26,886 nucleotides of DNA from a virus, in IMG/VR virus record IMGVR_UViG_3300025168_000542, positions 1 to 26,886 of that record; one strand, 5' to 3'. Position numbers and translations under genes: made by a program. How positions within the stretch are numbered: the stretch's first letter is position 1; each line of letters begins with the position of its first letter. The notes beneath the pieces were generated by a model. That model was not told the DNA's origin, searched no databases, and worked only from the letters and a program-made list of their open reading frames with translations. Positions 3,493-26,886 of the stretch are shown in pieces.

Positions 3493-4315
3493 GACCCACA
3501 GTGACCCACATGGATCCGAATGGCTAAAACTTTGTAAAAGTTGTGGCTTGTTGGATAAACCCTTTTATAGCCTGCTGGAGACTAGCCAGCTTGTAGGGTG
3601 CGCACGTACAACGGTGGCAAGGTGGGTCAAGGTGGGCTATTTGGATACACGTAGGTGGGGGCCACGCCGTGTACGTGTTACGGCCACAAGCATACGCAAT
3701 GCCCTACATATGCCCTCACCACCTACTACCGATGCTGTAGACCTACACGTAGGCAAGCCACCTACTACCGATGCTGTAGACCTACACGTAGGCAACCCAC
3801 CTACTACCGATGCGGTAAACTTACATGTGGGTCCAGGGAGTCGAACCGATGCGGTAGACCTACATGTGGGTCCAGGGAGTCGAACCGATGCGGCAGACCT
3901 ACACGTAGGCAACCCACCTACTACCGATGCTGTAGACCTACACGTAGGCAACCCACCTACTACCGATGCGGTAAACTTACATGTGGGTCTCGGGAGTCGA
4001 ACCGATGCGGTAGACCTACATGTGGGTCCGGGTAGTTTAACCGATGCGGTAAACTTACGCGGGAGCCGAACCGATGCTGCTAGCCCACATGGGAGTCGAA
4101 CCGATGCGGTAGACCTACACGGGAGCCGAACCGATGCGGTAGACCTACATGTGGGTCACTCGCCCACGACCGATGCGGTTGACCTACATCCACCTCCATG
4201 TAGGCCCCCCGCCCACTTTTCAGGCGATCCGCCGGGGTGCGAAGCTAACCAGCTCGTAGGACGAGAAAAAAATTCGCAGAAAAAAATTAGCAGAAAAAAA
4301 TTTAAAAAACCCTAG
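3491..4315 (+). CDS. Helix-turn-helix protein with tandem PPTTDAVDLHVG repeats (274 aa)
   Basis: Residues about 27-72 (FYSLLETSQLVGCARTTVAR onward) look like a MerR/excisionase-type winged helix-turn-helix: 'tSQLVGcARTTVARWVKVGYL' then an Arg-rich wing. Two cysteines (CKSCG) precede it. Residues 77-236 are 13 tandem repeats of 13 or 10 residues with core TDAV(D/N)LHVG. The tail is Lys-rich (KNSQKKISRKKFKKP). No clear ribosome site precedes the ATG; an operator-like repeat overlaps it, so the start is uncertain. It lies 11 bp before the modification operon. The likely role is a DNA-binding regulator. The repeat tail is unlike any family I know. DLHVG is kept while its codons vary, which argues that the peptide is translated. 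Confidence 0.65.
   Translation: MTHSDPHGSEWLKLCKSCGLLDKPFYSLLETSQLVGCARTTVARWVKVGYLDTRRWGPRRVRVTATSIRNALHMPSPPTTDAVDLHVGKPPTTDAVDLHVGNPPTTDAVNLHVGPGSRTDAVDLHVGPGSRTDAADLHVGNPPTTDAVDLHVGNPPTTDAVNLHVGLGSRTDAVDLHVGPGSLTDAVNLRGSRTDAASPHGSRTDAVDLHGSRTDAVDLHVGHSPTTDAVDLHPPPCRPPAHFSGDPPGCEANQLVGREKNSQKKISRKKFKKP
3719..4198 (+). repeat. Coding tandem array B with embedded palindromes
   Basis: Thirteen in-frame units: eight of 39 bp (3719-4030), three of 30 bp (4031-4120), two of 39 bp (4121-4198). Two flavours alternate: CCACCTACTACC... with CACGTAGGC, and GGGAGTCGAACC... with CATGTGGGT. Canonical palindromes CCYACRYGTRGG lie at 3740-3754, 3779-3793, 3857-3872, 3896-3910, 3935-3949, 4013-4028 and 4142-4157; variants with CTTACATGTGGG lie at 3820 and 3976. 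The array ends in CCTACAT-N8-ATGTAGG (4183-4204), the same geometry as 2016-2037 in cluster A. Confidence 0.9.
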
Positions 4316-4326: not shown

Positions 4327-4893
4327 ATGGAAACAAAGATGGCAATTGAGCTGGCAAGCACGAAAGACCTTGTCCCATACGCCCGCAACGCGAGGACTCA
4401 CTCAGATTCCCAAATCGCACAAATTGCCGCGAGCATAAAAGAGTTTGGCTGGACTAACCCTATTCTAATCGATGGGGAGAACGGGGTGATTGCGGGGCAT
4501 GGCCGTCTACTGGCTGCCCAAAAACTGGGGCTGTCCGAAGTACCGGTGATCCCCTTAGACGGGCTAACGGAAATTCAGAAGCGGGCTTACATCCTTGCGG
4601 ATAATAAAATTGCGGTCAACTCTGGCTGGGATACAGAAATGCTCGGGTTGGAACTTCAAGAGTTGGGGCCGGATATAGATTTAACGCTGGCTGGATTTAG
4701 CTCTGGCGAAATCGACAACATGCTAGAGGACGGGTGGAACTCCGACATCGACGCCCTTAATTCAACCGAGGCAAACCTAGACGGGATTAGGGAGAGGATA
4801 GTTATTCAGCTCGACGGTACTTTTGTCGAAGAGGTAACTAATAAAATTAAAGCATATTGCGACGAGCATGCCATCAGTGTGGATATCTCGTGA
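4327..4893 (+). CDS. ParB-like (ParB N-terminal/sulfiredoxin fold) DNA-modification partner
   Basis: 188 residues; ATG at 4327 with AGAGGA 8 bp upstream. Residues 12-115 are a ParB N-terminal domain: VPYARNARTHSD, then IKEFGWTNPILID, the phosphate-binding motif AGHGRLLAA (56-64), and a LADNKIAVNSGWD segment. This is the version found at the N-terminus of phage ParB-methyltransferase fusions, but here no methyltransferase follows. Instead, the stop overlaps the GTG of dpdA (GTGA). From what I recall of the bacterial Dpd system, DpdA needs the ParB-fold ATPase DpdB, so a DpdB-like role in base insertion is inferred. The alternatives are a nuclease or partition protein, less likely with no parA. 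Confidence 0.8.
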   Translation: METKMAIELASTKDLVPYARNARTHSDSQIAQIAASIKEFGWTNPILIDGENGVIAGHGRLLAAQKLGLSEVPVIPLDGLTEIQKRAYILADNKIAVNSGWDTEMLGLELQELGPDIDLTLAGFSSGEIDNMLEDGWNSDIDALNSTEANLDGIRERIVIQLDGTFVEEVTNKIKAYCDEHAISVDIS

Positions 4894-5720
4894 AGCCTCC
4901 CCGTCTAAACGCCTTGGTTGCGTATCCGTATTGTTCAGATCGAATGCAGAGGATTGCTAAAGATCTAGGCGGTTCGATTAGGTTTGTTCTGGATTCCGGG
5001 GCTTTTACTTCTTGGAAGTTGGGCAAGGAAATCCACCTCGACGATTACTGTAAATTCATAGAAGGTCTGCCCGTGGAGCCCTGGCGATATTTCACGCTGG
5101 ATGTGATTGGGAACCCCGAAGCCACTATGAAAAACTATCAGACAATGTTGCGCAGAGGTTTTAAGCCGGTTCCTATTTTTACACGTGGCGAAGACCCGTC
5201 GGTTTTGGACGAGTATTATGAGACGAGCGATGTGGTCGGTGTTGGGGGCTTGGTCGGTACTAAAGGCAACCGGGGTTTCGTTAAAGGTATCATGCAGAAG
5301 ATAGGAAAACGAAAGGTTCATTGGCTAGGCTTTACGAATCTTGAGTTCGTTAAATACTTCAAACCATACATGTGCGACACGTCGGCGTGGGAGAGCGTGG
5401 CGCGTTATGGCCAGCTCCGTTTATATATGGGGCGCGGTAAGTTTAAAGCTCTAAATAAAAAAGACTTCGCAAACAAACCGGACCCAGAAGTTTTAGAACG
5501 CATCCAAGGTTTTGGGATCGACCCTTATAAGCTGGCAAAAGACGAGCACTGGAGAGGCGGTTACTCTTCTGCTAGGGAACTGGCGGCTTATAACACTGTC
5601 AATCTAAGCATGGACGTCGAGACTAATTTAGGAACGAAATATTTTTTGGCTGTGGCTGCAAGCTGCGGGTTCGAGCTAATCGCAAAAGCATATAAAGACT
5701 TCACTAAGGGGAAAAACTAA
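4890..5720 (+). CDS. dpdA: DpdA, DNA 7-deazaguanine transglycosylase (phage type)
   Basis: 276 residues from the GTG at 4890, which overlaps the ParB-like stop. An in-frame TTG at 4857 is less likely. TIM-barrel of the tRNA-guanine transglycosylase superfamily: base-recognition motif LDSGAFTSW (Asp35), GVGGLVGTKGN (about 117-127, equivalent to the TGT GGLAVGE loop), HWLGF, and MCDTSAWESV with the likely nucleophile Asp163. The C-terminal Cys zinc site of tRNA-specific TGTs is not seen, as expected of DpdA. It would exchange guanine in phage DNA for a 7-deazaguanine base made by the downstream genes. It is translationally coupled to queC (TAATG). Confidence 0.85.
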   Translation: MKPPRLNALVAYPYCSDRMQRIAKDLGGSIRFVLDSGAFTSWKLGKEIHLDDYCKFIEGLPVEPWRYFTLDVIGNPEATMKNYQTMLRRGFKPVPIFTRGEDPSVLDEYYETSDVVGVGGLVGTKGNRGFVKGIMQKIGKRKVHWLGFTNLEFVKYFKPYMCDTSAWESVARYGQLRLYMGRGKFKALNKKDFANKPDPEVLERIQGFGIDPYKLAKDEHWRGGYSSARELAAYNTVNLSMDVETNLGTKYFLAVAASCGFELIAKAYKDFTKGKN

Positions 5721-6400
5721 TGGGCGACAAAAATAAAAAAGCGGTGGTGATTGTTTCGGGCGGCATGGATTCCGTCACTCTGGCTTACTTACTAAAGAGC
5801 GAAGGTTATGACCTGACGTTAATTGCTTTTGATTACGGTCAGCGCCACGGTAAAGAGTTGGAATTTGCTTTATGGCATGCGGATAAATTGGACGCTGCTT
5901 TTTTTCGTTTAGATATTTCTGGGATCCAACCGTTGTTAAAAGGTTCGGCGCTTACGGATGACATCGAAGTCCCACACGGGCATTACGCAGAAGAGAGCAT
6001 GAAGCTTACCGTGGTCCCAAATCGAAACGCCATCATGCTGAGTATTGCTTGGGGCGTGGCTTGTTCGCAAGAAGCGGATGTTTTGGCTTGTGGTGTCCAT
6101 GCTGGAGATCACCATATTTATCCTGATTGCCGCCCTGAGTTTATCGAAAGTCTGAACAAAGCCCTAAGAGTCGGAACCGAGGGTCACCGTTCCGAGGGTC
6201 TTGAGCTTTATGCTCCCTTTATGCATAAAACAAAAACAGACATTGCGGCAATCGGTGGTGAGTTGGGTGTTCCCTACCACATGACCTGGACCTGTTACGA
6301 AGGGCGCGAATTGCATTGCGGGAAATGCGGTTCGTGTACAGAACGTCAAGAGGCTTTCCACGATAGCGGTGTTCAAGACGGCACGGAGTATCGAGCATAA
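5720..6400 (+). CDS. queC: QueC, 7-cyano-7-deazaguanine (preQ0) synthase
   Basis: 226 residues, full length for the family. N-terminal PP-loop ATPase motif SGGMDS (13-18), the AFDYGQRHGKEL segment, VPNRNAIML, and ADVLACGVHAGDHHIYPDCR, all QueC signatures. Zinc cysteines C192, C200, C203, C206 (CGKCGSC). It converts 7-carboxy-7-deazaguanine plus ammonia and ATP to preQ0. No glutamine amidotransferase domain is fused, unlike the Gat-QueC of phages that make dG+. Its start overlaps the dpdA stop and its stop overlaps the queD start region (TAATG). Confidence 0.95.
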   Translation: MGDKNKKAVVIVSGGMDSVTLAYLLKSEGYDLTLIAFDYGQRHGKELEFALWHADKLDAAFFRLDISGIQPLLKGSALTDDIEVPHGHYAEESMKLTVVPNRNAIMLSIAWGVACSQEADVLACGVHAGDHHIYPDCRPEFIESLNKALRVGTEGHRSEGLELYAPFMHKTKTDIAAIGGELGVPYHMTWTCYEGRELHCGKCGSCTERQEAFHDSGVQDGTEYRA

Positions 6401-6846
6401 TGAAAAGAAACCACGAAGCCGTCCGGCGGATACAGTTTTGTTCGGGACATCGGGTACACAAGCACGAATCGAAATGTGCTCACCCTCACGGCCATAACTA
6501 TGTGGCCTTCATTCACTCAAGGGTTCGGGTCCAGGAAAGTTTTGGCGAGCTGGACGATGTGGGCCGTGTAATAGATTTTTCAGTTCTTAAAGAACGGGTC
6601 GGGACTTGGATCGACGAGAATTGGGATCACGGTTTTATTTACATGAAGGGCGACTTGGATATGGAGATCGTATTCAAGGACTCAGAGTATAAACATTACG
6701 CCATGGAAAAAAACCCTACTGCCGAAAACATGGCCCAACACTTGGTTCGGGACATTTGCCCTAAACTTATGGAAGGGACGAACGTGGATATTTTCAAGGT
6801 CGTCTTATGGGAAACGGAGAATTGCTATGCCGTATTCAGTAACTGA
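6400..6846 (+). CDS. queD: QueD, 6-carboxy-5,6,7,8-tetrahydropterin synthase
   Basis: 148 residues, typical length. Zinc-binding His17 (CSGHRVH), His30 and His32 (CAHPHGHNY), with Cys26 as the catalytic cysteine of the CxxxHGH signature. Substrate-site DDVGRVIDFSVLK and NPTAENMA near the C-terminus are the standard PTPS/QueD motifs. It converts 7,8-dihydroneopterin triphosphate, made by FolE, to carboxytetrahydropterin for QueE. It overlaps queE by 20 bp. No unusual residues were noticed. Confidence 0.95.
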   Translation: MKRNHEAVRRIQFCSGHRVHKHESKCAHPHGHNYVAFIHSRVRVQESFGELDDVGRVIDFSVLKERVGTWIDENWDHGFIYMKGDLDMEIVFKDSEYKHYAMEKNPTAENMAQHLVRDICPKLMEGTNVDIFKVVLWETENCYAVFSN

Positions 6847-7447
6847 AATGTTTTGTGCGTTGCAGGGCGAAGGCCATCGGGTAGGTCAACGAAATGTCTT
6901 CGTTCGTTTTTCCGGCTGTAATTTAAAATGCAGTGCGGATGTCGAGGGCTTTGATTGCGACACCGATTTTCGATCTGTCTATAAAAAATACGAAACCGCC
7001 GACGAGTTGGTTGCAGAGATCCAGGAAGTCTGGGGCGAACCGCTTAAGGATAAGGCGGTTATTCTTACGGGGGGCGAACCGACACTTCAAATCGATCTGG
7101 AGCTGGCAAAGGCACTTAGTCGGGCAGAGTTTTTTGTAGCTATAGAAACCAACGGCATAAAAGATTTGCCGGACGAAGTTATGGGCTACATCGACTGGGT
7201 TAGCTGCTCCCCCAAGACGGCGGAACATACTTTAAAGATTAATCGCGTTGACGAGTTGCGTTATGTTCGAGCGATTCGCCAAGGCGTTCCAAGACCGAAG
7301 TTAAAGGCGACCCACAAGTTCCTATCCCCGGCAGCCGATGGTGGCGGACCAAAACAGGAAAATCTGGACCATTGCCTGAAGCTAATAGACGAAAACCCTA
7401 AATGGCGATTATCCGTTCAAATGCACAAACTTTGGAGCATACGATGA
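6827..7447 (+). CDS. queE: QueE, 7-carboxy-7-deazaguanine synthase (radical SAM)
   Basis: 206 residues. N-terminal EMFCALQGEG and VFVRFSGCNLKC match QueE. The cluster cysteines are C31, C35 and C44, that is CX3CX8C with FDCDTDF, rather than the CX3CX2C of the simplest radical SAM enzymes. The short insertion (SADVEGFD) before the third cysteine resembles one of the QueE variants. LTGGEPTLQ (SAM-binding GGE) and IETNG follow. It contracts carboxytetrahydropterin to 7-carboxy-7-deazaguanine, the QueC substrate. The start overlaps queD; the end overlaps folE (ATGA). Confidence 0.93.
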   Translation: MPYSVTEMFCALQGEGHRVGQRNVFVRFSGCNLKCSADVEGFDCDTDFRSVYKKYETADELVAEIQEVWGEPLKDKAVILTGGEPTLQIDLELAKALSRAEFFVAIETNGIKDLPDEVMGYIDWVSCSPKTAEHTLKINRVDELRYVRAIRQGVPRPKLKATHKFLSPAADGGGPKQENLDHCLKLIDENPKWRLSVQMHKLWSIR

Positions 7448-8061
7448 GCAATAAAGAAGAATTAATCAACGCGCTTACTGAAGAGGCCATAAACGAAACC
7501 AAAGAAAAAGCAGGTCTTAAGGCGGTGGAATCTTTGTTGTGGGTTATTGGCGAAGATCCCAGCCGAGAGGGTCTTTTGGAAACCCCGAAAAGATTCGTGA
7601 AAGCCTGGGGCGAATGGTTTAAAGGCTACAAAGACGACCCGGCGGAAATACTTTCGAAATCGTTTTCCGAGGTGGGTGGATATGACGAGTTGGTTATGTT
7701 GCGGAAGATCCCTTTTGAAAGCCATTGCGAGCACCACATCGCCCCGATTATTGGTTCGGCCACAATTGCTTATCTCCCAGACCAGGGCGTGGTGGGTATT
7801 TCCAAGCTGGCCAGACTTTTGGATTGTTATTCCAAGAGATTACAGGTTCAAGAGAAACTGACAGCCCAAATTGCGGACGCCATCGAAATGTACCTAAAAC
7901 CTCGGGGGGTTGCGGTAATTATTACGGCAGAACACCACTGTATGACGACCCGAGGGGTACACAAGCACAAGTCAGAGATGATAACATCAGAAATGAGGGG
8001 TTCGTTTAGAAGCGAGCCAAGCCTCAGAAATGAAATAATGTCTCTGCACCTGGGAGGGTAA
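7444..8061 (+). CDS. folE: FolE, GTP cyclohydrolase I
   Basis: 205 residues from the ATG at 7444, chosen over the in-frame ATG at 7402 because TTGGAGC lies 6 bp upstream and it overlaps the queE stop (ATGA). Conserved EGLLETPKRFVKAW, the zinc motif FESHCEHH (Cys95, His98), VVGISKLARLLDCYSKRLQVQE, and AEHHCMTTRG (Cys166). It opens GTP to dihydroneopterin triphosphate, the first step of preQ0 synthesis. It is a canonical FolE1 in length and motifs. It is the last gene of the modification operon, 1 bp before the small terminase gene, so it is probably co-transcribed with the head genes. Confidence 0.95.
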   Translation: MSNKEELINALTEEAINETKEKAGLKAVESLLWVIGEDPSREGLLETPKRFVKAWGEWFKGYKDDPAEILSKSFSEVGGYDELVMLRKIPFESHCEHHIAPIIGSATIAYLPDQGVVGISKLARLLDCYSKRLQVQEKLTAQIADAIEMYLKPRGVAVIITAEHHCMTTRGVHKHKSEMITSEMRGSFRSEPSLRNEIMSLHLGG

Positions 8062-12136: not shown

Positions 12137-14466
12137 AAGACCAGAATCAAACTTTTGTCGATAAGGGCGAAGAGTGGGACGCAATCTATAACGCTATTCT
12201 TGAAAGAACAGGCGACAAGGAACTTGCGGCTGCAACGGCAACAGCACGTGCGGGTTCGCGACTGGAGAAGAAAAGCTACAAGGCCCCTCCGGCAGTTGTT
12301 AGAGAAGTGAACCAAGGGTTTGCGTGGGAAAAAGAATACAACCGAAGCGATGCTAAAACCCAAATTGGGAGAATGATTCAGCGCGGCAAAACACTATCTT
12401 TGGAAATGGTCAAAGGGATGGTCAGTTTCTTTGCTGGTCACGAGCGCGACATTGTAGCATCCGAAGCAAATAGAAACTCAAGGGATAAAGGCTATCCCGG
12501 AGCCGGTTTAATTGCGTGGAAGTTGTATGGCGGTGACGCGGGTAGAAAATGGGCCGAGGGTGTTGTGGCGGAAAGTCGAAAAGAACCTGCCGAAAAATCT
12601 GACGTCGTAAAAGCCAAGAACGTCGAGATTGACGCGCCTGACGGGCATCATTGGATGGATTACGTGGGCGGTCCTGTCCTAATGGTGGGCGACTACCAAC
12701 CACACGACGGGGCAAGCGAGAGTTTTGCGTTTGAAATTATCGAGGAACACGACCCCGACAATTTAAGGAAAGCAGACAACTTTAAGCCCCCCAAAGGTGT
12801 CCAGTCTCAGGCGGCGTTGGGGCTAAAGTGGCGACGGGAATACGGGCGCGGCGGGACCGAGATAGGTGTGGCTAGAGCCCGGACTCTATCAAACGGCAAC
12901 GGCATACCCTTAAAAACAATTAACCGGATGGTTTCGTATTTTGCTCGGCACGAGGTGGATTTAAAACCGGCCAAGAATAGTGACCCTGGCGCAGACGGAT
13001 ATCCAGGCGCTGGCTTAATCGCCTGGAAATTGTGGGGGGGAAACGAGGGCAAGCGCTGGGCGGATGCTATATCGGCGAGAGAAAAGAAAAAAGACGGCGT
13101 TAAAAAAGCATCCAAAGAATACTTGGAAGCGGCCCTAAAATTAGCCAAGGACGAGCTGCCGGGCTGGGCGTACGCTAGGATTCATCAAGCCGCGAGAGGT
13201 ACAGCAGGGGGCAAACGGCGAGGCGCTAAGGCCGGTTCCCGTATGCTTGCTAAAATGGCGATAAGCCAAATGACTCAAAACTTTATCGAAGAAATGAGCG
13301 ATCAAGACATCCGTATGGCTTGGCAGTATTTGGACGACTGGCATCGAAACCACAAACAAGATGCCGAGTTAAGGCCTGAGATTGTAAGAGTGGGTTCGAT
13401 GCTTATGAGCGAGATGACACGGCGCGGCAAAAAATGTCCGTCTTGTGACTTGATGCGAGAAGCCACGACTAGGCTGGAAGTTGAGAAAGCCCAACTTCTT
13501 AAGCTTAATAAAAGCAGTGTCTCGGTTCATTCGCCGAATAGTCCAATTGTTTTTGTGGTCGAGGAACCTAATTCAATCGACAAGGCACGGGGCGAATATT
13601 TAGTGGGGCAAGACGGTAGAATTTTTCAAGATCTTTATTTAAACAAGCTAGGGATCAAAAAAAGCGACGTCTGCATTGTAGATATTACCCAACTGGATTG
13701 GCTAGAAACTAAGCAACCTCGGGAGGTTATAGCACTTGGGCGAACGGCTAAAAACGCATTAGGCGACTTAGCAACTTGTGTTCTCCCTCACCCTAAAGCG
13801 GTTCGTCGTTTTGGCGATAGTGGGGAGATTGAACGCAAGCTCAACTCTGTAGTTAAAAGAAGCGGTCATTTCTTACTTGACCCAGACTCCCAAAATAGTC
13901 CAAGCTTGGAACCAGGAGCAGAAGAGGACAGTTGTGCGCAAGCCGATGAGCTGATTAATAAGCAGGGTGGCGTCAGTCGGGATCTTTCCGAACAGTCTGA
14001 ATCATTAGTCGTGCCGATCTCGAAGGCGGACTCGGAGAAGCAAATAGTCTACGGCATTGTGCTTGATCCTTATCAAGTAGATAGCCAAGACGATTGGGTG
14101 CCTCCAAAAGCAATAGAGGAAACAGCCCATAGATGGCTCGCAGAATCGCGGGTGATTGGGTTAGATCATAGCGAAGTAGCCAAGGCCCATCCGGTGGAAT
14201 CCTACATGGTGCCCTACCCAAGCCGCGAGGATTACGATAATGCTATGGCAAACGAACCTCACCGAGCATATACGATGCCCTTCGGGGAAGACATCGTGCA
14301 TTCAGGCTCATGGGTACTTGGGACAAAACTTGGGGATGAGGAATGGGCGTCAGTAAAAGACGGCGAATTAAACGCCTATAGCATAGGCGGTTATGGAAAC
14401 CGTAAAAAGACGACCAAGAGCAAAATGCCACAAGTTGAATTCGTAGAGTTGAAAGAAGAACGATAA
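12133..14466 (+). CDS. Multidomain prohead protein: duplicated phage domain, UDG-like domain, XkdF-like protease
   Basis: 777 residues, several times the size of a lone prohead protease. In order: short helical start (1-48); a domain ending KGYPGAGLIAWKLYGGDAG (about 49-145); HHWMDYVGGPVLM region (150-215); a second copy of the first domain, with GRGGTEIGVARARTLSNG and DGYPGAGLIAWKLWGGNEG (217-315); helical region with KKCPSC at about 434; a uracil-DNA glycosylase-superfamily-like domain (about 463-578, with VFVVEEPN, IVDITQL, VIALGRTAKNALG, LPHPKAVRRFG); and an XkdF-like serine protease (626-760, with VIGLDHSE and AYSIGGYG as likely His and Ser sites). It overlaps portal and scaffold genes at both ends, the usual place for a maturation protease. 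Confidence 0.8.
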   Translation: MKDQNQTFVDKGEEWDAIYNAILERTGDKELAAATATARAGSRLEKKSYKAPPAVVREVNQGFAWEKEYNRSDAKTQIGRMIQRGKTLSLEMVKGMVSFFAGHERDIVASEANRNSRDKGYPGAGLIAWKLYGGDAGRKWAEGVVAESRKEPAEKSDVVKAKNVEIDAPDGHHWMDYVGGPVLMVGDYQPHDGASESFAFEIIEEHDPDNLRKADNFKPPKGVQSQAALGLKWRREYGRGGTEIGVARARTLSNGNGIPLKTINRMVSYFARHEVDLKPAKNSDPGADGYPGAGLIAWKLWGGNEGKRWADAISAREKKKDGVKKASKEYLEAALKLAKDELPGWAYARIHQAARGTAGGKRRGAKAGSRMLAKMAISQMTQNFIEEMSDQDIRMAWQYLDDWHRNHKQDAELRPEIVRVGSMLMSEMTRRGKKCPSCDLMREATTRLEVEKAQLLKLNKSSVSVHSPNSPIVFVVEEPNSIDKARGEYLVGQDGRIFQDLYLNKLGIKKSDVCIVDITQLDWLETKQPREVIALGRTAKNALGDLATCVLPHPKAVRRFGDSGEIERKLNSVVKRSGHFLLDPDSQNSPSLEPGAEEDSCAQADELINKQGGVSRDLSEQSESLVVPISKADSEKQIVYGIVLDPYQVDSQDDWVPPKAIEETAHRWLAESRVIGLDHSEVAKAHPVESYMVPYPSREDYDNAMANEPHRAYTMPFGEDIVHSGSWVLGTKLGDEEWASVKDGELNAYSIGGYGNRKKTTKSKMPQVEFVELKEER

Positions 14467-15491
14467 TGGCGATCACAGCCCTAACCGACGTAGAAACTCT
14501 TGAAGTAAGCTTAGTGCCTCAAGGCGCTAATAAGAAAAAAAGATTTCCCGTCCTAAAATCAGCGGAGAAAAACATGTCTGATATTTTACACGCGGTTATT
14601 GACGCTCCCAGCAGCGAAGACAACCGATTTGATCAAGTAGTAAAAAGCAGCTCGCTCAGGAACAACCCTGAAGCGGCTGAAGCCGTAATAGGTGCTCTAA
14701 AAATCCTAAACGCTTATTCTGATTCCGTCTCGCCCGCAGAAGCGGTCGGCTTAGTTGCCGACGGTTTGGGTGTCCAGAAGGGTCTTTACGAAAAAGGCAG
14801 TGAGTACGAAGAAAAAGCGGAAGAAGAAGAAGAAGAAGAAAAAGAAGAGGAAGCCGAAGTAAAGATTGAAATGGCGGATGAAGAGGAAGAAGAAACCGAA
14901 AAAGCAGAAGAAGAAGAAGAAGAAACCGAAAAAGCAGAAGAAGAAGAAGAAGAAACCGAAAAAGAAGAAGAAGAAGAGGAAGAGGAGACCGAAAAAGAAG
15001 ACGTCGAAAAGTCTTTAAAGTCACTCCCTAAAAACGTTCGCCGCCAAATGACAGCGCTCTTCAAGTCTCAAAAGCAGGCCATCGCCAAAGCTGCAAAGCT
15101 CGAAAAGGCTTTAAAAGTGGAGCGAGACGAGCGGCTTCGTAAAGACTTTGTGGAAAAAGCCCACAAGGATTTTCCTTACGTTCCCGGCAAATCACCGGAA
15201 GAAGTCGGCTTGATGCTTAAGTCTCTTCATTCGGTAGCACCAAAAATTGCTGAAGACATCGAAGGTATCTTTAAGTCTGTCAGTGCAACAATCGAGAAAA
15301 CCGGTCTGCTCACAGAGTTGGGGTCCGGTATGAGTAGCGGTGGCGATAGCGCTTCGGCTTACGGAAAACTAGATGGGATTGCTCGACAGGCGGTCACTAA
15401 GTCTGGCGTTTCGTATGCGAAAGCTTTTGAAACCGCTATGACTCAAAACCCTGAACTCTATACTGCTTATCTCAACGAGCAAGCCAAGTAA
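14466..15491 (+). CDS. Capsid scaffold / assembly protein with Glu-rich linker
   Basis: 341 residues; ATG overlaps the protease stop (TAATG). The first 30 residues (TDVETLEVSLVPQGANKKKRF) carry the 'VSLVPQGANK' motif found next to XkdF-type proteases and scaffolds, likely a cleavage-proximal segment. Residues about 113-180 are almost pure Glu with repeated EEEEETEKA units (27 bp DNA repeats). Then comes a basic coiled-coil region (VRRQMTALFKSQKQAIAKAAKLEKALKVERDERLRK) and a globular C-terminus. It would guide major capsid protein assembly and be degraded or expelled. The acidic-then-coiled layout is typical of scaffolds. Confidence 0.8.
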   Translation: MAITALTDVETLEVSLVPQGANKKKRFPVLKSAEKNMSDILHAVIDAPSSEDNRFDQVVKSSSLRNNPEAAEAVIGALKILNAYSDSVSPAEAVGLVADGLGVQKGLYEKGSEYEEKAEEEEEEEKEEEAEVKIEMADEEEEETEKAEEEEEETEKAEEEEEETEKEEEEEEEETEKEDVEKSLKSLPKNVRRQMTALFKSQKQAIAKAAKLEKALKVERDERLRKDFVEKAHKDFPYVPGKSPEEVGLMLKSLHSVAPKIAEDIEGIFKSVSATIEKTGLLTELGSGMSSGGDSASAYGKLDGIARQAVTKSGVSYAKAFETAMTQNPELYTAYLNEQAK

Positions 15492-18850: not shown

Positions 18851-20287
18851 ATGGGTGCTTCAACCGATCATGCATTAGGCCGGAATTTAAATTTTTACTG
18901 TAAAGTGGAAACAACTGCTGGTGCTCAGTACGGCACAACTTCGCAGGAACAAGTTGCCGCCGACGACGCTGCTAAAGTTCTTGCAACGTCGATGGAATTT
19001 TCGGTTGCTAGAGCCGACCGCATGGATTCCCGTACTACAAGATCCGTTCTTGAGCGTATTACAGGCAAGCAGGAAATTTCATGGTCTTGCGAAAGCTACC
19101 TGCTACCTGCTGGGGCACCTACGGTGCCGGACATAGCGCCGCTGCTTCACGCTGGGTTGGGTTCGGGGCCTTATGTGGGTTCGGCTGCGACTTTGGGGAC
19201 GGCGGTTGTTACGGGAGCGTCTAAGGCGTCCAGCGCCGTTATATCGTTTTCGGCAGGACACCCGTTTAAGCTAAACGATATGGTTTATTTTACGGGCGTT
19301 GTTGGCATGACTGAGCTGAACGGCTTAACTTTAAAAGTCACCGCGGTCGACTCGGGCGGCGCGGACGTGACTTTTGCAGTCAACTCTACGGGCTTTGGGA
19401 CTTGGGGAGCGGGCGGTACTCAAAACGCACTGCTCCAGACCTATCGGGTATCTGATACCAACGCCCTTCCAACTGTAAGACTATCACGAGAAACTAATCA
19501 AATTTTAAGAGAAGATCTGTTTGGTTGCTGGGTCGAAGAAGTTGGCGTCTCTGCAAGCGGTGGCGAAGAACCCAAGATCACATTTAGTGGCGGGGCTTTT
19601 AATTACGCTTTGACCGGTACAGGAGCTTCCGAAGGCTCAAACTCAGGCACAACTTTAAACGTGGAAGCTGGCCAAGGCGTAAACTTCATGGTCGGTTCCG
19701 TGATTAGCGTTTCGACAAACACCAACGAGATTGTAACAGCTAAAAGCACTGACGCTTTAACGACCAGTTCAATGGGCAGCACTAGCGACGCGACGCCGGT
19801 TCTGCCGACAATTTACACTCCAGTAACTGCGGGGAATCCTATCAACGGTATTTCGGGCAGTTTGCTTTTAAACAGCGTAAGTCTGCCGATAACGTCTTTT
19901 GATATGTCACTGGCAAACGGTCTTAAGCCCATTAGTGACGAGGCTATGACAAAAGGGACCAGTGATTTTATCGCTGGTTATCGTTCTGTTTCGGGTAACA
20001 TTAGCGTTCGGGCACGTAAGGATATGATCCAAAATCTTGCTCAACGTTATGTCCAAACAACTGCAACGGCAGATCCTTCGTTTGCGAGCATTCCCGTTGT
20101 CATTACTTTGGGCAGCGAAACAGGCAAACAATGCGTTATCACTATGGCAACTTGCGAACTTGATTTCGCGGGCATCGAAATACCGGAAGCTGAAGAAGCT
20201 ATCCTGTCGATTCCTTTTAAAGCTCTAGGCGCAACGGGTGCCGATAGCTCAAATCAGGAAATCCTATTTTCTTGGAACCAGAATTAA
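18851..20287 (+). CDS. Major tail tube protein with inserted FCCH-like domain
   Basis: 478 residues; GAGGAG upstream of the ATG at 18851. The N-terminus (ALGRNLNFYCKVETTAG), TGKQEISWSCESYLLPAG, and the C-terminal half (NGLKPISDEAMTKGTSDFIAGYRSVSGNISVR, ITMATCELDFAGIEIPE) are typical of long-tail tube proteins. Residues about 136-195 (GHPFKLNDMVYFTGVVGMTELNGLTLKVTA) resemble the ubiquitin-activating-enzyme FCCH-like domain found on phage tail proteins. It lies just before the tail chaperone genes, as a tube protein should. Confidence 0.85.
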   Translation: MGASTDHALGRNLNFYCKVETTAGAQYGTTSQEQVAADDAAKVLATSMEFSVARADRMDSRTTRSVLERITGKQEISWSCESYLLPAGAPTVPDIAPLLHAGLGSGPYVGSAATLGTAVVTGASKASSAVISFSAGHPFKLNDMVYFTGVVGMTELNGLTLKVTAVDSGGADVTFAVNSTGFGTWGAGGTQNALLQTYRVSDTNALPTVRLSRETNQILREDLFGCWVEEVGVSASGGEEPKITFSGGAFNYALTGTGASEGSNSGTTLNVEAGQGVNFMVGSVISVSTNTNEIVTAKSTDALTTSSMGSTSDATPVLPTIYTPVTAGNPINGISGSLLLNSVSLPITSFDMSLANGLKPISDEAMTKGTSDFIAGYRSVSGNISVRARKDMIQNLAQRYVQTTATADPSFASIPVVITLGSETGKQCVITMATCELDFAGIEIPEAEEAILSIPFKALGATGADSSNQEILFSWNQN

Positions 20288-20313
20288 CATTTAAAAATTT
20301 ACGGGGAAACAAT

Positions 20314-20664
20314 ATGACTATCAGCGAAGCGGACGCAGTTCTGTACGTGCCAGAACATGGCGACAATAGACACCTGCCTGATGAAGAACAAATTTTTGTA
20401 AAAATTGTTCCAATGACTGGCGGTGAGTTTAGAAGATACACCCGCGCAGCCACATTAAAAAAGAACCAAACTAACCTCGAAAAAGTCGTCGAGAAAATTA
20501 TTATTGAACGGGTTCTGGAAGTCGAGAACTACAAAGACATTCGCGACAAGGCTGTTTCGACTTCAGAGGAATTTTTTGAGCAGGCTGAAGTAGCCCTTAT
20601 CGACGAAGTTTTTTCGGCACTCACTGAGATCAGTGTTTTGAAAGGCGGTCAAAGAAAAAAATAG
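20314..20664 (+). CDS. Tail assembly chaperone, short form (lambda gpG-like)
   Basis: 116 residues from the ATG at 20314, chosen over an upstream in-frame TTG (20272) because GGGGA lies 6 bp before it and it does not overlap the tube gene. Helical and acidic, with VKIVPMTGGEFRRYTRAATLKK and a C-terminal helix. Position between tail tube and tape measure, plus the frameshift site at its end, identifies it. About 30 residues of its C-terminus (AEVALIDEVFSALTEISVLKGG) are hydrophobic enough to bind tape-measure segments. Confidence 0.8.
   Translation: MTISEADAVLYVPEHGDNRHLPDEEQIFVKIVPMTGGEFRRYTRAATLKKNQTNLEKVVEKIIIERVLEVENYKDIRDKAVSTSEEFFEQAEVALIDEVFSALTEISVLKGGQRKK
20655..20661 (+). other. Programmed -1 frameshift slippery site A_AAA_AAA
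   Basis: The short chaperone ends ...CAA AGA AAA AAA TAG. The heptamer A_AAA_AAA is in register. A -1 slip makes the next codon ATA at 20661 and leads directly, with no stop, into ATC GCC CTT CGT ATG (20667-20681), the frame of the next gene. A fused product would be 249 residues. This mirrors the lambda G/GT arrangement, where the slippery sequence is G_GGA_AAG. No downstream stimulating structure was identified by eye. Confidence 0.8.
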
Positions 20665-20678
20665 AGATCGCCCTTCGT

Positions 20679-21062
20679 ATGTCATTGAGTGACGATGCTT
20701 CTGTTAAGAAGTGGGGTTGTTCAAAATGCCGGGGCGAGGGTTTTGAGGACGGCGATAAATACCGGGAATTTCGCAACTGTGACTCGTCTAAGAATGAGAA
20801 CATTGCTTGGGAATGGATGCCTGGGCTTCGCCGCTGCCCTTGGAGCCAAGCAGATGACGAGACCTGGGAAGCGATCCGGTGGTGGGGCGAGTTTAAAGAG
20901 TTCGGTGTTTTGCCTTGGGGCGGTTCTGATTTGATGGAGCAGCCTGCTTACGTTTTAGAAGTTTTTAATCTTTGCACAGAGATTAAAAACGTTTTTCATG
21001 GCGAGATGTCTAAGAAAGAGAAGAGTCAATGGCAGAAAACCGCAAAATCGGGATCTCGTTAA
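20679..21062 (+). CDS. Tail assembly chaperone extension (gpT part of GT)
   Basis: 127 codons from an internal ATG, but best read as the T-part of a frameshift fusion starting at 20661 (133 residues after the slip). Weak ribosome site before the ATG agrees. It is Trp- and Cys-rich: a likely zinc pair CSKC near the start, RNCD and RRCPW further on. A later motif, GVLPWGGSDLMEQPAYVLEVF, resembles the 'LPxxGGLxDQPxxLxE' pattern seen in gpT-like extensions. It overlaps the tape measure gene by 34 bp. Role: holds the tape measure while the tail tube polymerises. Confidence 0.75.
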   Translation: MSLSDDASVKKWGCSKCRGEGFEDGDKYREFRNCDSSKNENIAWEWMPGLRRCPWSQADDETWEAIRWWGEFKEFGVLPWGGSDLMEQPAYVLEVFNLCTEIKNVFHGEMSKKEKSQWQKTAKSGSR

Positions 21063-23059
21063 TCCTCGAAGACAAAATGTCGGCCGCCGTCGACAAGACC
21101 GCCAAAACTATCGGCAAGGTTTCCAAAGCTGCGGACACTGCTAGAGCAAAAGCCGCAAAAGTCGCCGACACAATTAAAAAATGGGCTAAACTTTTAATGC
21201 CTATCGGACTGGTCACGGCTGCAATAACGGGGGTAGGAGCAGCCGCGTTTATGCTAACTAAAAAAGTAGCTACTGCCGGTGACGCAATGATTAAAGGTGC
21301 GCAACGTCTAACACTTAGCACAGACGCCTATCAAAAATTCAACCACGTTATGCAAATCAGCGGAACGAGTATGGAAGAGCAAAAAGGATCCATGACCCGA
21401 TTTGCAAGAACCGCCCGTGACGCATCGAACGGTGTAAAAGTTGCTGAAGAAGCCTTTGATAGATTAAACGTAAGCGTTAAAAATAACGACGGCTCTTTTA
21501 AAAGCACCGAACAGCTTATGTATGAGGTTTCGGATTCGTTTAAAGAGATGCCACCGACTGTAGAGAAATCCGCTCTAATGATGGACATGTTTGGTCGGTC
21601 GGGGGCGTCGCTTGCTCAAATGATGAATTTAGGTTCCGGCGGCATGAAAGAGCTTGGTAAGGATGCCGAAAGACTTGGCGGGATTATGAAAGAATCCGCC
21701 GCTAAGAAGTCGGAAGAGTTTGTAGACGCTCTAACGCGCCTAAACACTGCTGTCGGCGGTGTTACTCGATCGATGGGCGAAACCATGCAGCCTATGTTTA
21801 CTCGCGTTATGGAGTCCATGGCGAACTCTGTGGTGGATTTAAAAGGGGCCTATGCGCCGGTCTTCCAGGGGCTTGTTGATTTTGCTTCGCAAGCTGCGCA
21901 GGCCGTTGTCCCAACTCTTGGCTTCCTTGCTAAAGCCTTTGTGGGTTTTGGAACCGTTGTTATGCAGGCATGGAAGGCTTTGCAAATTGGTCTGAACAGT
22001 ATTGTTTCAGGCTGGATTCAGATGTTTAATATTTTGATAGAGCAATCGAATAAGTGGTTAGGAACCGATTACACGCCTATCATGGACAGCTTCGGGATCG
22101 TTGCTAATGAGCTGGGCGAGGATATGGGCAATATCCAAGAAGCCTCCAACCAGACAATGAAAGCCATTGATAACATTGGTGACGCTATTTTAAACACTGG
22201 CAAAAAACTACACGTCACAACGCCCATTGCTGAAAAGGCGCGGGACGCTGTGAAGGGGTTGGGCAAGGCCACTAAACAGCTCACGGACGAAGAATTGAAA
22301 AATATGGCTGCTTTGGAAAAAAGCAGAAAAAAGAGAAAAGAAGCCGCCGAAGAGAAGGTTAAGCAGTTTAAAGAGGATCAGGAAAACTATCGCATTAAAA
22401 TAGCGATCAAGCTTACCAAGGAGCTAGAGGCTGCGGATGAAAAGCGCCAAAAGGCCCGCAAAGCGGCGCATAAAGAGGCTATAAAAGAAGCCGAGGTTCA
22501 CGCCAAAGCCTATCTTCAAATAGGAAATACCATAGGCGAATCTTTCACGGACGGTTTCTCGAATGCCGAAGAGGGGCAAAATAAATTCCACGAAGGCCTG
22601 AAAAAAATGGGGCACGATACTATCATGCAGGCTCTGGACATTATGCAGACTCAAATTACTGCACACGCAGCTACGGGCGCAGCGGCAGCAGCAGCTAATA
22701 CAGCGGGCATACCTCTTATCGGTCCCATGTTAGCGGCAGCGGCGGGTGCTGCGATGTTTGGTTTAATTAAGGGGTTTATCTCTTACGGAATGGGCTCAAT
22801 TCCCGGCATGGCTGAGGGTGGTTTTGTTACTGGCGGTTCACCGAATCAAGACTCGGTGCCACGAATGCTTATGCCGGGCGAATACGTTATGTCTAAGCGC
22901 GAAGTAGCAAACGGTCGTGCGGATGGTGTAAAAGGCGGCCAAACTGTAAACGTCCAAATATCTTCGAGCTTGCCACCGGGACGCGCCGAAATGAAAAAGT
23001 TTGTTCGCAGAAATATAGTGCCCGCTTTGCGCGAACTAAAAACTCAAGGGATGTTCTAA
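21029..23059 (+). CDS. Tape measure protein
   Basis: 676 residues; ATG overlaps the chaperone gene by 34 bp. It is the longest tail gene before the tip proteins. Hydrophobic stretch at about 54-76 (LLMPIGLVTAAITGVGAAAFML), long helical middle with charged coiled-coil segments (about 400-500, KKRKEAAEEKVKQFKEDQENY and following), and a second hydrophobic part at about 548-590. The C-terminal AEGGFVTGGSPNQDSVPRML and MPGEYVMSKREV is the standard tape-measure ending. At roughly 1.5 angstrom per residue it predicts a tail near 100 nm, hence a siphovirus. Confidence 0.95.
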   Translation: MAENRKIGISLILEDKMSAAVDKTAKTIGKVSKAADTARAKAAKVADTIKKWAKLLMPIGLVTAAITGVGAAAFMLTKKVATAGDAMIKGAQRLTLSTDAYQKFNHVMQISGTSMEEQKGSMTRFARTARDASNGVKVAEEAFDRLNVSVKNNDGSFKSTEQLMYEVSDSFKEMPPTVEKSALMMDMFGRSGASLAQMMNLGSGGMKELGKDAERLGGIMKESAAKKSEEFVDALTRLNTAVGGVTRSMGETMQPMFTRVMESMANSVVDLKGAYAPVFQGLVDFASQAAQAVVPTLGFLAKAFVGFGTVVMQAWKALQIGLNSIVSGWIQMFNILIEQSNKWLGTDYTPIMDSFGIVANELGEDMGNIQEASNQTMKAIDNIGDAILNTGKKLHVTTPIAEKARDAVKGLGKATKQLTDEELKNMAALEKSRKKRKEAAEEKVKQFKEDQENYRIKIAIKLTKELEAADEKRQKARKAAHKEAIKEAEVHAKAYLQIGNTIGESFTDGFSNAEEGQNKFHEGLKKMGHDTIMQALDIMQTQITAHAATGAAAAAANTAGIPLIGPMLAAAAGAAMFGLIKGFISYGMGSIPGMAEGGFVTGGSPNQDSVPRMLMPGEYVMSKREVANGRADGVKGGQTVNVQISSSLPPGRAEMKKFVRRNIVPALRELKTQGMF

Positions 23060-23060: not shown

Positions 23061-24209
23061 ATGGCTTATTCGGCGGCAGCGCTTAGCAGTGCGGAGACTG
23101 CGGGATTTACTAACGACAAACCGTTAATGGCGTCGCAGAGCGCTAACGTTGCCACCTCTAGCAGTCATTGGACTTTTACGGGTTCGGGGGCGGATACTGA
23201 TAAAACGTTGGCCAGTGCGCCAGCAGTTCGCGCACATGACGACATTGGCGCATTTACAACCGAGCCCACAAATATATCCCAAACCATAACAGCAGCCACA
23301 AAAACGAATCCTTGTGTTGTAACGTCTAACGGTCATGGGCTTGTTAACGGGGATAAGGTTTTTATAACCGACGTCGGGGGCATGACGCAGCTAAATAACC
23401 TAGAGTATGAGGTCACGAATAAATCGACTAACACTATAGATTTGCTGGGCATTAACGCTACGTCGGGCTATGACACGTACACTGGCGGTGGCAAAGTAAC
23501 ATCCGTCAAGTTTTACAATTTCTTCTTCACTACGGGAGACGAAATAAGCTTCGACACTTTGTGCGTTTTGGGACACAACCTAAACTCCATCGGGGCGGTT
23601 AGTGTTTCATTAGAAATTGCAGACAATAGTGCTTATAGCTCGAACTTAAAAGAGATAGCACAATACACTATTTCAGGGACAACCGATAACCGCATACTCT
23701 TTACAAATTTGAATAGCGAAGGCGGTTCAAACACGTATAGCGCGACCGGCACTGCTCAACGATATTCGAGCGTTGCTTATGTTCGTCTTAAAATTGTTCA
23801 CGCGGGGGCAACCGCTCCAAAAGTGGGCGAGATATTTTTAGGTACTAGATACCAACTATCAAGAAACCCTAACGTGCCTTGGAATAATAAAGACGAGCAC
23901 AGCGAAATTTCGGATTTTGTAAGCCAAAACGGTATCATTCAAAGGTATGTTTTTTATCGCGGGCAAGCTGTTAGATCGGTAGAAATGTCTCTAGGGTCAA
24001 GTTCGAATATTGCGGTCGTGGACGATTGGTACAACGCTATTCACGAAGGCACCCGTTCGTTTCTTTGGATTGATACGCCTAGTTCTGGTGCCGAATGCAG
24101 ACTTATGATTCTGGACTCTGCCGACCTTGTTTTTCCTTTGGCCGGTCCTTTTGAAAGAAATTTATCTTTTACGATGCGGGAGCAACCGCCTTACTTATCG
24201 AGGGAATAA
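23061..24209 (+). CDS. Distal tail protein with FCCH-like domain
   Basis: 382 residues. Follows the tape measure gene by 1 bp. Residues about 92-140 (NGHGLVNGDKVFITDVGGMTQLNNLEYEVTN region) are an FCCH-like domain similar to that in the tail tube protein at 18851. Before and after it are beta-rich segments (FTGSGADTDKTLASAP; YSSVAYVRLKIVHAGATAPKVGEIFLG; RYVFYRGQAVRSVEMSLGSSS). Its place between the tape measure and the tip fits a Dit-like distal tail component. Its stop is directly followed by the next ATG. Confidence 0.75.
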   Translation: MAYSAAALSSAETAGFTNDKPLMASQSANVATSSSHWTFTGSGADTDKTLASAPAVRAHDDIGAFTTEPTNISQTITAATKTNPCVVTSNGHGLVNGDKVFITDVGGMTQLNNLEYEVTNKSTNTIDLLGINATSGYDTYTGGGKVTSVKFYNFFFTTGDEISFDTLCVLGHNLNSIGAVSVSLEIADNSAYSSNLKEIAQYTISGTTDNRILFTNLNSEGGSNTYSATGTAQRYSSVAYVRLKIVHAGATAPKVGEIFLGTRYQLSRNPNVPWNNKDEHSEISDFVSQNGIIQRYVFYRGQAVRSVEMSLGSSSNIAVVDDWYNAIHEGTRSFLWIDTPSSGAECRLMILDSADLVFPLAGPFERNLSFTMREQPPYLSRE

Positions 24210-26886
24210 ATGGCAGGATCTCCATCAGCCGCATGGCTTCTTGAAATGCGAAAAGGCACGGTTGAGCCCGTTGTCCATTGCTCTATTGCGCTTAGCGGTA
24301 CGACAATGGATTTCCACAACTGGACTTGTGGGGGTTTGGATAGCACGGTTACTGGCGACCCTTTACTGAGCGACATGGCTTCCGTTAGCCAGCAGACTGA
24401 TCCAGTTGTAAGAAGCACTCAAATGTCTGAGGTTACGCTCACTCTTACAGACGACGGTAAAATTCGAGGGCTGGCGGACACTCAGACCCTTTATAATTCG
24501 ACAGTCACCATCAAACTAGGGACGGCTAATTTAGCACTCTCTGACTTCGTGGTTATTTTCAAAGGTCCCATAATAAGAATTCACCCAACGCCTGGGCAGG
24601 TCCTTTTAAAAGTGGCTGACATGGGTTCTTTAATTTACGAGAAAAGAAGCCGGAGAACTTATTACAGCGCTCACCCTTTTGAAGTTATGAAACAAATGTT
24701 GCTTGATTCGGGTGTTGTTGTTGGGGATATCCACACGGCAAGTTTTACGCCGTCAAACTACTCTGATGACATTTCGCATTACTGTTATAGCTCGAAACAA
24801 TATTACACGGGCGGCGAACATATTAGCAGCAAAACTCATTGGAGATACGATTACGGTGGGATTTTAACTCTAGATAATTCAGCTTTTCTTATTTTGGATT
24901 GTCGCGATTTTGTCGATGAGACTTTGGCTTTGACACGAACTTCCATGTTTATTGACACGGACGGCAAGGTCAAGCTTCAGCATTATAACTCCTCGAACGC
25001 TATTGTTAAGCATTTCACTGCTGACGAATATAGCGAATTTTCCCAGTTGGAAGAAGACGTCCAAATATACAATGAAATTGAATGCCAAATGGTTAACAAC
25101 AAAGGTCAGTTGTTTACTCGGCAGGATAACGCCTCGATAACTAGAAACGCAAAGCAGCCGTTGCAAATAGACTCTTCGTATCTTTCCCCAGTAACTGGCA
25201 AAGTAAGAAAACAACCGGGCGGCAATCCCGGAGCGTCAGATCAAGTTTTAGGTTTTTGCGGGACGAGAAATTTGGTTGCGGGTGTTTCGGGCGACGAGTC
25301 AATAACTGCTGACAGGCCTTGTTATTGGATGAACCGGTGCGAAATCTTTAAAGGCACTGCGGCGCTTACTTACGATGGGTGGGTTCAGGGCAATCAATAC
25401 ACAACGCACGATCGCTTTATAGACGACGACGGCGACCTGACTAGCGACTTTTTTGTAGGCCCGGTCCAAGTTACTTTAAACGGTATGGCGACGCGCCCTT
25501 TTGCGGGCAACCAAGCCGACATCGATAATAGCGAGCATTACGTTTATGACGTAACCATATTATACGATTTTGCTAGTTACGTTTTAGAGAGGTTTTCGCA
25601 CTCTGCCCCGAAAATTCAATTCAACTTGAGCATTGAATACGCCTATCTTGAGATCGGCGATTTTATATCCCTCGACAACGATGTTTTTCTTTCCACCGAG
25701 CTTGATTTAAACGGTCTCGATTCTGCCGTAAAATTTGAAATTACTCAGAAAGAAATTACGCCCTTGGGCAGTGACGTGGGTGTCTCGCTTACTTGCGTTT
25801 ACGCAACCCAGACCTCTCCACCTACAAGAACCCTCGCAGACGAGATCGGGGATATGTACAAAATTATGAGCCCCAGTGCTCTTCAAAGCGACATAGATTT
25901 AGGCGTTATGGCTAACTCGGTTATCGGTGGAGGGCTTGAGCTGGGTCTCGGCTCAGGGCTTGATGGTACGGTTAGTGAGGGCATCGGCGCATCCGCTTCG
26001 GGTTGGATGCGGCAAATTCCCCCGGACGTGACCTTTAGGGCAGTCGCTAACAGGGATAATTATATCGGGATTGACGGAATCACGGGTACGATTAGCGTTA
26101 TGTCAGGGCCTTTGGGGGGCAGCGAGCCGCCTTTGAAATCTAACGAGATTCGCCTTGGAAAAGTTGTTTCGGGGGCTAGTTCGTTAAGTTCAGCAGTTGA
26201 TTTAAGACAATTTGGGATTGCTTCTGTAAACCAGATCGATCCCTTGGCCGTTGCTCCGGGTCTTTTTAATCTTTGGAACAATAGTTTCGACATCTGGCCC
26301 AACACAGCCGAAACGCCTCCGGGTTGGGATTATGATCAAGGCGTGATCTTAACCGATTTTGAAAGAAGCTCGACGGCTCACAATAGTGTCCATTCACTAA
26401 AGACTTTAAACACAGCAACCAACGTTCGTTTTAACTCTAGAAAATTTCCCGTCGATCCTAATAAAAGTTATGACGCCTCTGTTTATCTTCAGACGTCGGC
26501 GGCTTTTGCATTAAGAATGGATGTTTATTGGTACAAAGCCGATCGGACAGCTTCGAGCGTTACCGCAAGCGTTATTATTACGAATGCCAACCTGTCTTCG
26601 ACGGGGGCTTGGCACCAGAAAAACTCGATTGTCACTCCGCCTTCAGATGCTGCTTATGGGAAGTTCGTTTTGTTTCGTGCGGCGAGTCCCGGCGGTGTGG
26701 GTTATTTTGACGATTTAAAATTTCGTGAAGTGCCTGCCGGATTTCGAGCTAAGACGCCTTCAGCGGGGGGCGGGACCAGTATTGCAAAGGACACTGATAC
26801 AGCAATTGTCTTCACTGCCGAAACGCACGACTACGGCGGGGTCTATACAACGTCGGGGGGCTCCGCTGGACGGTTTACAGCGCCCG
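24210..26886 (+). CDS. Tail tip / fibre protein, 3' truncated at the window edge
   Basis: Open without a stop from the ATG at 24210 to the end: at least 892 codons. Begins AGSPSAAWLLEMRKGTVEPVV. Residues about 1-690 are a tip/hub-like region with regular beta strands (SMFIDTDGKVKLQHYNSS, FSQLEEDVQIYNEIECQMV). From about residue 687 comes a carbohydrate-binding-module-like part (NLWNNSFDIWPN, GWDYDQG, SYDASVYLQTSAAFALRMDVYWY, VGYFDDLKF). From about 848 a C1q-like domain starts (AIVFTAETHDYGGVYTTS), cut by the window edge. The last two domains suggest host receptor binding. The gene has no stop in view, so length and C-terminus are unknown. Confidence 0.85.
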   Translation, partial: MAGSPSAAWLLEMRKGTVEPVVHCSIALSGTTMDFHNWTCGGLDSTVTGDPLLSDMASVSQQTDPVVRSTQMSEVTLTLTDDGKIRGLADTQTLYNSTVTIKLGTANLALSDFVVIFKGPIIRIHPTPGQVLLKVADMGSLIYEKRSRRTYYSAHPFEVMKQMLLDSGVVVGDIHTASFTPSNYSDDISHYCYSSKQYYTGGEHISSKTHWRYDYGGILTLDNSAFLILDCRDFVDETLALTRTSMFIDTDGKVKLQHYNSSNAIVKHFTADEYSEFSQLEEDVQIYNEIECQMVNNKGQLFTRQDNASITRNAKQPLQIDSSYLSPVTGKVRKQPGGNPGASDQVLGFCGTRNLVAGVSGDESITADRPCYWMNRCEIFKGTAALTYDGWVQGNQYTTHDRFIDDDGDLTSDFFVGPVQVTLNGMATRPFAGNQADIDNSEHYVYDVTILYDFASYVLERFSHSAPKIQFNLSIEYAYLEIGDFISLDNDVFLSTELDLNGLDSAVKFEITQKEITPLGSDVGVSLTCVYATQTSPPTRTLADEIGDMYKIMSPSALQSDIDLGVMANSVIGGGLELGLGSGLDGTVSEGIGASASGWMRQIPPDVTFRAVANRDNYIGIDGITGTISVMSGPLGGSEPPLKSNEIRLGKVVSGASSLSSAVDLRQFGIASVNQIDPLAVAPGLFNLWNNSFDIWPNTAETPPGWDYDQGVILTDFERSSTAHNSVHSLKTLNTATNVRFNSRKFPVDPNKSYDASVYLQTSAAFALRMDVYWYKADRTASSVTASVIITNANLSSTGAWHQKNSIVTPPSDAAYGKFVLFRAASPGGVGYFDDLKFREVPAGFRAKTPSAGGGTSIAKDTDTAIVFTAETHDYGGVYTTSGGSAGRFTAP

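Follow-up and report, generated by a model that had tools for sequence, protein, structure and literature searches.

A conserved slippery heptamer predicted to fuse two tail assembly chaperone frames, followed by RNA structure, in a family of uncultured phages

Results

A short chaperone-like ORF ends on a slippery heptamer upstream of a tape measure gene

The window, meaning the whole stretch of DNA analysed here, comprises the 26,886 bases of a virus record. On its plus strand, a G-like ORF of 116 aa (20314-20664), assigned as a tail assembly chaperone from a structure model and a fold match, runs from ATG 20314 to the TAG at 20662-20664. It is preceded by the Shine-Dalgarno (SD)-like sequence ACGGGGA (20301-20307, plus strand), whose predicted duplex with the anti-SD has an energy of -5.7 kcal/mol. 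The protein has the C-terminus ..GGQRKK, and the last codons of its frame read CAA AGA AAA AAA TAG. These letters place the heptamer A_AAA_AAA at 20655-20661 in the register of the G-like frame, with the stop codon abutting it. The -1 frame is open from 20661 for 133 codons up to its stop at 21060-21062, and the nearest upstream stop in that frame is at 20625-20627. This T-like extension (20661-21062, plus strand), which we predict is entered by -1 slippage, carries a CxxC motif (C-S-K-C) at its residues 20-23. Given a start at ATG 20314, the predicted G-T fusion would comprise 116 + 133 = 249 residues. The first-pass annotation had described a poly-A heptamer in register at the end of the short frame, an open -1 frame leading into a CxxC-containing extension and a 249-residue fusion, and our reading of the sequence agrees with it on all of these.

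The upstream ORF (18851-20287, plus strand, 478 aa) is a putative major tail protein gene; its role is assigned from gene order only, and its product gave no clear PHROG. Downstream lies a tape measure protein gene (21029-23059, plus strand, 676 aa) that matches tape measure PHROGs (e.g., phrog_8462, E 5.8e-37). The tape measure gene starts within the 3' end of the T-like frame and overlaps it by 34 nt. The locus has the G/G-T arrangement, in which a short ORF and a longer -1 frame lie directly upstream of a tape measure gene. We also observed an E1_FCCH-like stretch in two proteins whose genes flank the chaperone and tape measure genes, those of 18851-20287 (just below the Pfam cut-off) and 23061-24209, which possibly share a common tail-protein domain.

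Several features lie elsewhere in the window. A cassette at 4327-8061 holds QueC, PTPS (QueD-like), radical SAM (QueE-like) and GTP cyclohydrolase I genes, and beside it is a ParB_N-like gene just below the Pfam cut-off. The ORF at 4857-5720 had no match and presumably resembles a DpdA-type transglycosylase. The cassette suggests that the phage DNA carries 7-deazaguanine modifications. Positions 3719-4149, inside an ORF with repeated TTDAVDLHVG, hold 39- and 30-bp tandem repeats that have a palindrome-like core, CCTACACGTAGG, and a similar motif occurs at 1965-2068. A GAA-rich 30-bp repeat array lies at 14808-15001 within ORF 14466-15491. The window contains no tRNA.

A-runs of seven are frequent in the window. 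We counted X_XXY_YYZ heptamers in 24 plus-strand ORFs treated as genes (6838 codons, with the open-ended ORF at 24210-26885 left out). Fifty-four heptamers are in register. Only the one at 20655 is followed by more than 39 open codons in the -1 frame, where it has 133.

The heptamer and its register are conserved across the family

We searched for relatives with the window T-like protein, which returned 10 loci, and with the window tape measure protein, which returned 27. An alignment of 11 T-like domains, led by that of the window, then identified 91 relatives among viral contigs, and the best 80 of these were analysed. Adding the window as well as L021 and L022, both from the tape measure search, gave 83 rows, or 41 clusters at a T-like-domain identity cut-off of 90%. 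IMG/VR is the sole source of the relatives. Because the query was the T-like protein and not the heptamer, this search did not favour slippery sites.

An in-register heptamer is present at the G/T joint in 40 of the 41 clusters and in 82 of the 83 rows (81 plus L067). The exception in both counts is L109, which was kept out of the tests below because it has no heptamer; they cover the other 40 clusters. L109 is alone in lacking an X_XXY_YYZ heptamer there; its frames overlap around CTTGGGGGAATC, at about 2970-3010. The heptamer is A_AAA_AAA in 24 clusters, A_AAA_AAC in 8, A_AAA_AAG in 3 and G_GGA_AAC in 2, with one cluster each for G_GGA_AAG (L091), C_CCA_AAC and C_CCA_AAA. The first-pass annotation had counted an A-run broken in relatives, together with only independent products, as evidence against its proposal. 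When we checked, 16 of the 40 clusters were not A_AAA_AAA, yet each of them has another X_XXY_YYZ heptamer in the same register.

The position of the heptamer is also constrained. Measured on the alignment, the distance from the start of the heptamer to an invariant Trp is 54 nt in 13/40 clusters, 57 nt in 25/40 and 60 nt in 2/40. For 8/40 clusters, the motif position was a fixed fallback in the joint-heptamer, 45-nt shuffle and start-codon tests; distances and start codons were recounted against the aligned Trp, and the start-codon counts were the same. Across clusters, heptamer matches number 44 in register compared with 31 and 12 in the other two registers. Most off-register matches are the same A-run displaced by one or two bases, and it is therefore the sites without an A-run that carry weight. 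On the tree of the T-like protein, which was built with the first 12 codons excluded and in which several long branches are uncertain, the heptamer letters change at least 10 times. These data indicate that the letters drift while the heptamer class and its register stay.

The stop codon of the G-like frame directly abuts the heptamer in 22/40 clusters, and in 7/40 it lies 135-186 nt beyond. In L080, L082, L083 and L084, the slippery site sits inside a run of nine A's and the 0-frame stop comes 135-168 nt later; for these four, transcriptional instead of ribosomal slippage is conceivable.

RNA structure downstream of the heptamer appears to be selected in many members

The RNA structure behind the heptamer was not part of the first-pass annotation, nor were two further conserved cysteines and the lack of a convincing match in the annotated libraries searched, both described below. 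Compared with dinucleotide shuffles, the first 45 nt after the heptamer gave a mean z of -2.47 over the 40 clusters, and 20/40 fell under -2. Positions 30 nt or further away gave mean z values from -0.42 to +0.25, with 0 to 6 of 40 clusters under -2. When synonymous codons were permuted, at most 3 of 150 permutations were as stable as the native first 45 nt in 18/40 clusters, compared with 2, 1, 1 and 1 of 40 clusters at four other 45-nt positions. With 18/40 clusters here and only one or two at the controls, the structure goes beyond what coding alone explains. The remaining 22/40 clusters missed this mark. In 7/40 clusters the permutation ignores a second coding frame, because the 0-frame stop comes 135-186 nt later. 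Over the first 80 nt, 15/40 clusters pass; the control positions covered 45 nt.

Sister clades of the window share a local hairpin of 13 bp that begins 5 nt after the heptamer, and 14 clusters form at least 10 of its 13 pairs. In an alignment of 22 clusters, 24 cells changed on both sides of a pair compared with 10.3 in shuffles (0 of 500 shuffles reached the observed number), and the hairpin beat slid versions of itself on all five covariation measures. Two of the five measures were reached by shuffles, pairs changed on both sides in 17 of 500 and further pair types in 133 of 500. The test as a whole favours the hairpin, since these 22 of the 40 clusters were picked after their folds had been seen.

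The window itself carries a degenerate copy of this hairpin at 20667-20696 (plus strand), with 9 of 13 pairs, which is not significant in the window itself. We ruled out the full local hairpin there: besides the missing pairs, the first 45 nt do not outperform controls (z -1.09 in shuffles at offset 5, and +0.95 in codon permutation). A second architecture is predicted in its place, a 7-bp stem that closes a branched fold. Its 5' arm, TCGCCCT (20668-20674, plus strand), begins 6 nt after the heptamer and pairs with the 3' arm GGGGCGA (20731-20737, plus strand). With wobble allowed, the stem is common to the window, L037, L038 and L046, and 5 further members of the L038 cluster also carry it. 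When 40 spacings were tried, full 7-bp partners of the window 5' arm turned up in 10/40 clusters, 4 of them at the spacing of the window. Because partners arise this readily, the case for the closing stem is built on its sharing and on the codon-permutation test. In that test over 80 nt, the number of permutations as stable as the native sequence (of 150) was 1 for the window (z -2.83), 0 for L037, 4 for L038, 1 for L046 and 0 for L052, the last being a fifth member of the clade of the window, one without the closing stem. The dinucleotide test of 89 nt in the window was weaker (z -1.58, 16 of 200).

For the family, then, the tests point to selected structure about 5-8 nt past the heptamer. 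For the window alone, the evidence is the 80-nt codon-permutation test together with the shared stem. On the basis of the permutation, stem-sharing and shuffle results, we regard a stimulatory structure as likely across the family and as fairly likely in the window. Codon permutation gave no support for an upstream SD-like stimulator (mean z -0.42 over 40 clusters), and Rfam at the gathering threshold gave no match in the window.

The G-like protein is predicted to have a chaperone fold, and the T-like domain has four conserved cysteines

An AlphaFold2 model of the G-like protein (pLDDT 91) had as its top match in BFVD a viral tail assembly chaperone (E 2.2e-6, TM 0.72). In the PDB, the HK97 chaperone 2ob9 ranked first, as a weak match (E 0.37); it aligned with Z 4.9 over 88 residues at 4.9 A and 7% identity, which alone could reflect a common arrangement, and 3fgx gave Z 5.1. 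As modelled, the G-like protein has a tail-assembly-chaperone fold, for which the BFVD match is the main support and the PDB match is suggestive. Sequence searches gave no convincing name for the protein. The best PDB hit, at E 0.12, was not a phage protein by name, Pfam gave no convincing match (the member from the window was searched), and a PHROGs search with 39 members gave nothing convincing, its best hit being an unnamed family at E 0.0049. The G-like alignment has 39 rows, with L087 missing.

The T-like domain contains four conserved cysteines, encoded at 20718, 20727, 20778 and 20835 within the stretch 20718-20837 (plus strand). All four are present in 39/40 clusters and three of them in 40/40, a pattern of conservation that suggests a possible metal (zinc) site. 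The model of the domain has a pLDDT of 88, and a fold search of the PDB returned 3 matches, all with E 5.8 or worse and the best with Z 3.0. The best PDB sequence hit, at E 0.025, was not a phage protein by name either. Neither Pfam nor PHROGs gave a convincing match; phrog_9001, a tail assembly chaperone family, reached a best E of 0.16 and did so with 2/40 members only. A tblastn search of 50,697 phage records found nothing at E 1 for the window G-like and T-like proteins or for the T-like proteins of L022 and L014, and two scans of genome contigs with T-like alignments found no relative. We did not find this family, or a four-cysteine tail assembly chaperone, in literature titles and abstract openings among the matches listed, which lie mostly outside subscription journals.

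Other routes to the T-like domain

If the T-like protein were made independently, it would have to start within its own frame, at ATG 20679 in the window, or by coupled reinitiation after the TAG at 20662. The window does offer this in-frame ATG, 18 nt past the slip point and at residue 7 of the extension. Across the family, an ATG lies between the slip point and the Trp in 12/40 clusters, and some start codon occurs in 18/40 in the stretch of the T-like frame that begins 30 nt upstream of the slip point and extends as far as the Trp. However, the same stretch holds no ATG, GTG or TTG in the other 22/40 clusters. Pairing with the anti-SD is also weak: the predicted duplex is -2.9 kcal/mol at ATG 20679 compared with -5.7 kcal/mol at ATG 20314, and only one of the 40 clusters has a T-like-frame start with a duplex of -6 kcal/mol or better, a GTG in L022. 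The residues of the extension that precede the window ATG are themselves conserved (Ala4 in 34/40 clusters and Arg6 in 37/40), and independent translation does not account for an in-register heptamer in nearly every cluster. We consider independent production or reinitiation very improbable in the window, and an independent start is, from these sequence comparisons, an unlikely route to the T-like domain for the family. The absence of start codons also speaks against a third reading, that both genes are real and Lys-rich 3' ends happen to produce the heptamer by chance. Coincidence gains from the frequency of A7 runs and in-register heptamers in the window; against it, the heptamer keeps a distance of 54-60 nt from the Trp in 40/41 clusters, including those whose sites are not A-runs. 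We regard it as extremely unlikely.

Slippage could instead occur during transcription: RNA polymerase would add or drop A's, and a fraction of the transcripts would then carry the fused frame before translation. The window has an uninterrupted A7 at its site, and runs of nine and of eight A's are each found in 4/40 clusters. Transcriptional slippage has been named as a possible reason for the avoidance of AAAAAAA in E. coli genes (PMC4066793). In 13/40 clusters, however, the site has six A's or fewer, including G_GGA_AAC/G and C_CCA_AAC/A, and at such sites tandem tRNA slippage is still allowed. Short A-runs would be expected to slip poorly in transcription. The selected RNA structure behind the site is a further point against this reading, which we judge improbable. 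It may also coexist with ribosomal slippage at the same run, and our likelihoods for the different readings do not sum to one.

Discussion

We conclude that the region very probably encodes a lambda-type G/G-T pair of tail assembly chaperones through a -1 ribosomal frameshift. This is what the first-pass annotation had proposed in naming a programmed -1 frameshift of conserved lambda-type logic, and the proposal is borne out as far as comparative sequence evidence goes by the register of the heptamer, the joint conserved in 40/41 clusters, the predicted chaperone fold and the tape measure gene downstream.

In the mechanism we favour, two tail helper proteins would be made from one message because some ribosomes slip back by one letter on seven A's. 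Most ribosomes would end at the TAG at 20662 and release the 116-aa chaperone. A smaller share, holding Lys-tRNAs on both AAA codons, would slip back one base, putting the TAG out of frame, and would read on as ATA GAG ATC to produce the 249-aa fusion with its four-cysteine T-like domain. Slippage is probably stimulated by RNA structure, a local hairpin in the sister clades and a longer closing stem in most of the clade of the window. Judging by gene order and fold, and by analogy with lambda, we would expect the short form to coat the tape measure protein and the rarer fusion to recruit the tail tube protein. The cysteines of the T-like domain may bind metal.

A fuller proposal is tentative, and we hold it as possible rather than probable. 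Here, the locus represents an undescribed chaperone family of uncultured phages in which a selected 3' RNA element sets the ratio of G to G-T. This element would come in two interchangeable architectures with a common 5' arm, either the local 13-bp hairpin or a multibranched fold of about 70 nt closed by the 7-bp stem, and the T domain of the fusion would be a four-cysteine, probably zinc-binding domain and not a lambda-type T.

Frameshifted tail chaperones are textbook knowledge, and the mechanism itself, lambda-type G/GT, is already known. The new elements are a chaperone family with no convincing counterpart in the annotated libraries searched, its four-cysteine T-like domain and a selected RNA element in many of its members. 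Across 41 clusters the slippery letters and the RNA structure vary while the arrangement is constant, which makes the family a natural comparison set for studying the tuning of a fixed protein ratio by an RNA element. For annotators, the family also offers a means of naming two ORFs that would otherwise stay anonymous in this group of uncultured phages.

The closest parallel is lambda G/G-T. The gene order ahead of the tape measure gene is alike, as are a short form with a rarer -1 fusion and an X_XXY_YYZ heptamer close to where the short frame ends; the G_GGA_AAG of L091 is also the heptamer of lambda. The two differ in that no named chaperone family matches ours convincingly in sequence and that its T-like domain has four conserved cysteines, which lambda T is not known to have. 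The family also differs from lambda in having the stop directly after the heptamer in 22/40 clusters and, in many members, selected RNA structure past the site. In lambda, both gpG and the less abundant gpGT attach to the tape measure protein, and the tube protein is bound through the T part (PMC5009743).

HK97 offers a second comparison. Its tail assembly chaperone 2ob9 (gp13) was the first PDB match of the G-like model, and a shared fold is likely from the modelled structure, although identity is 7% and the Foldseek E value is 0.37. For an HK97-like tail chaperone cluster, frameshift efficiencies of 6% and 7% were measured in two genes (PMC3711429).

IS911 and dnaX are like our family in combining a slippery heptamer with a downstream structure, although the genes are different. 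Their stimulators are a three-way junction in IS911 and a simple stem-loop in dnaX (PMC5009743). Downstream structures are described as generally beginning 5-8 nt after the slippery sequence (PMC4066793), and the heptamer-structure spacing of 5-6 nt in our family fits this range. An upstream SD-like stimulator, described for IS911 (PMC4066793) and implied for dnaX (PMC5009743), distinguishes both of these systems from the window family, where such an element is unsupported and the candidate stimulator lies 3' of the heptamer.
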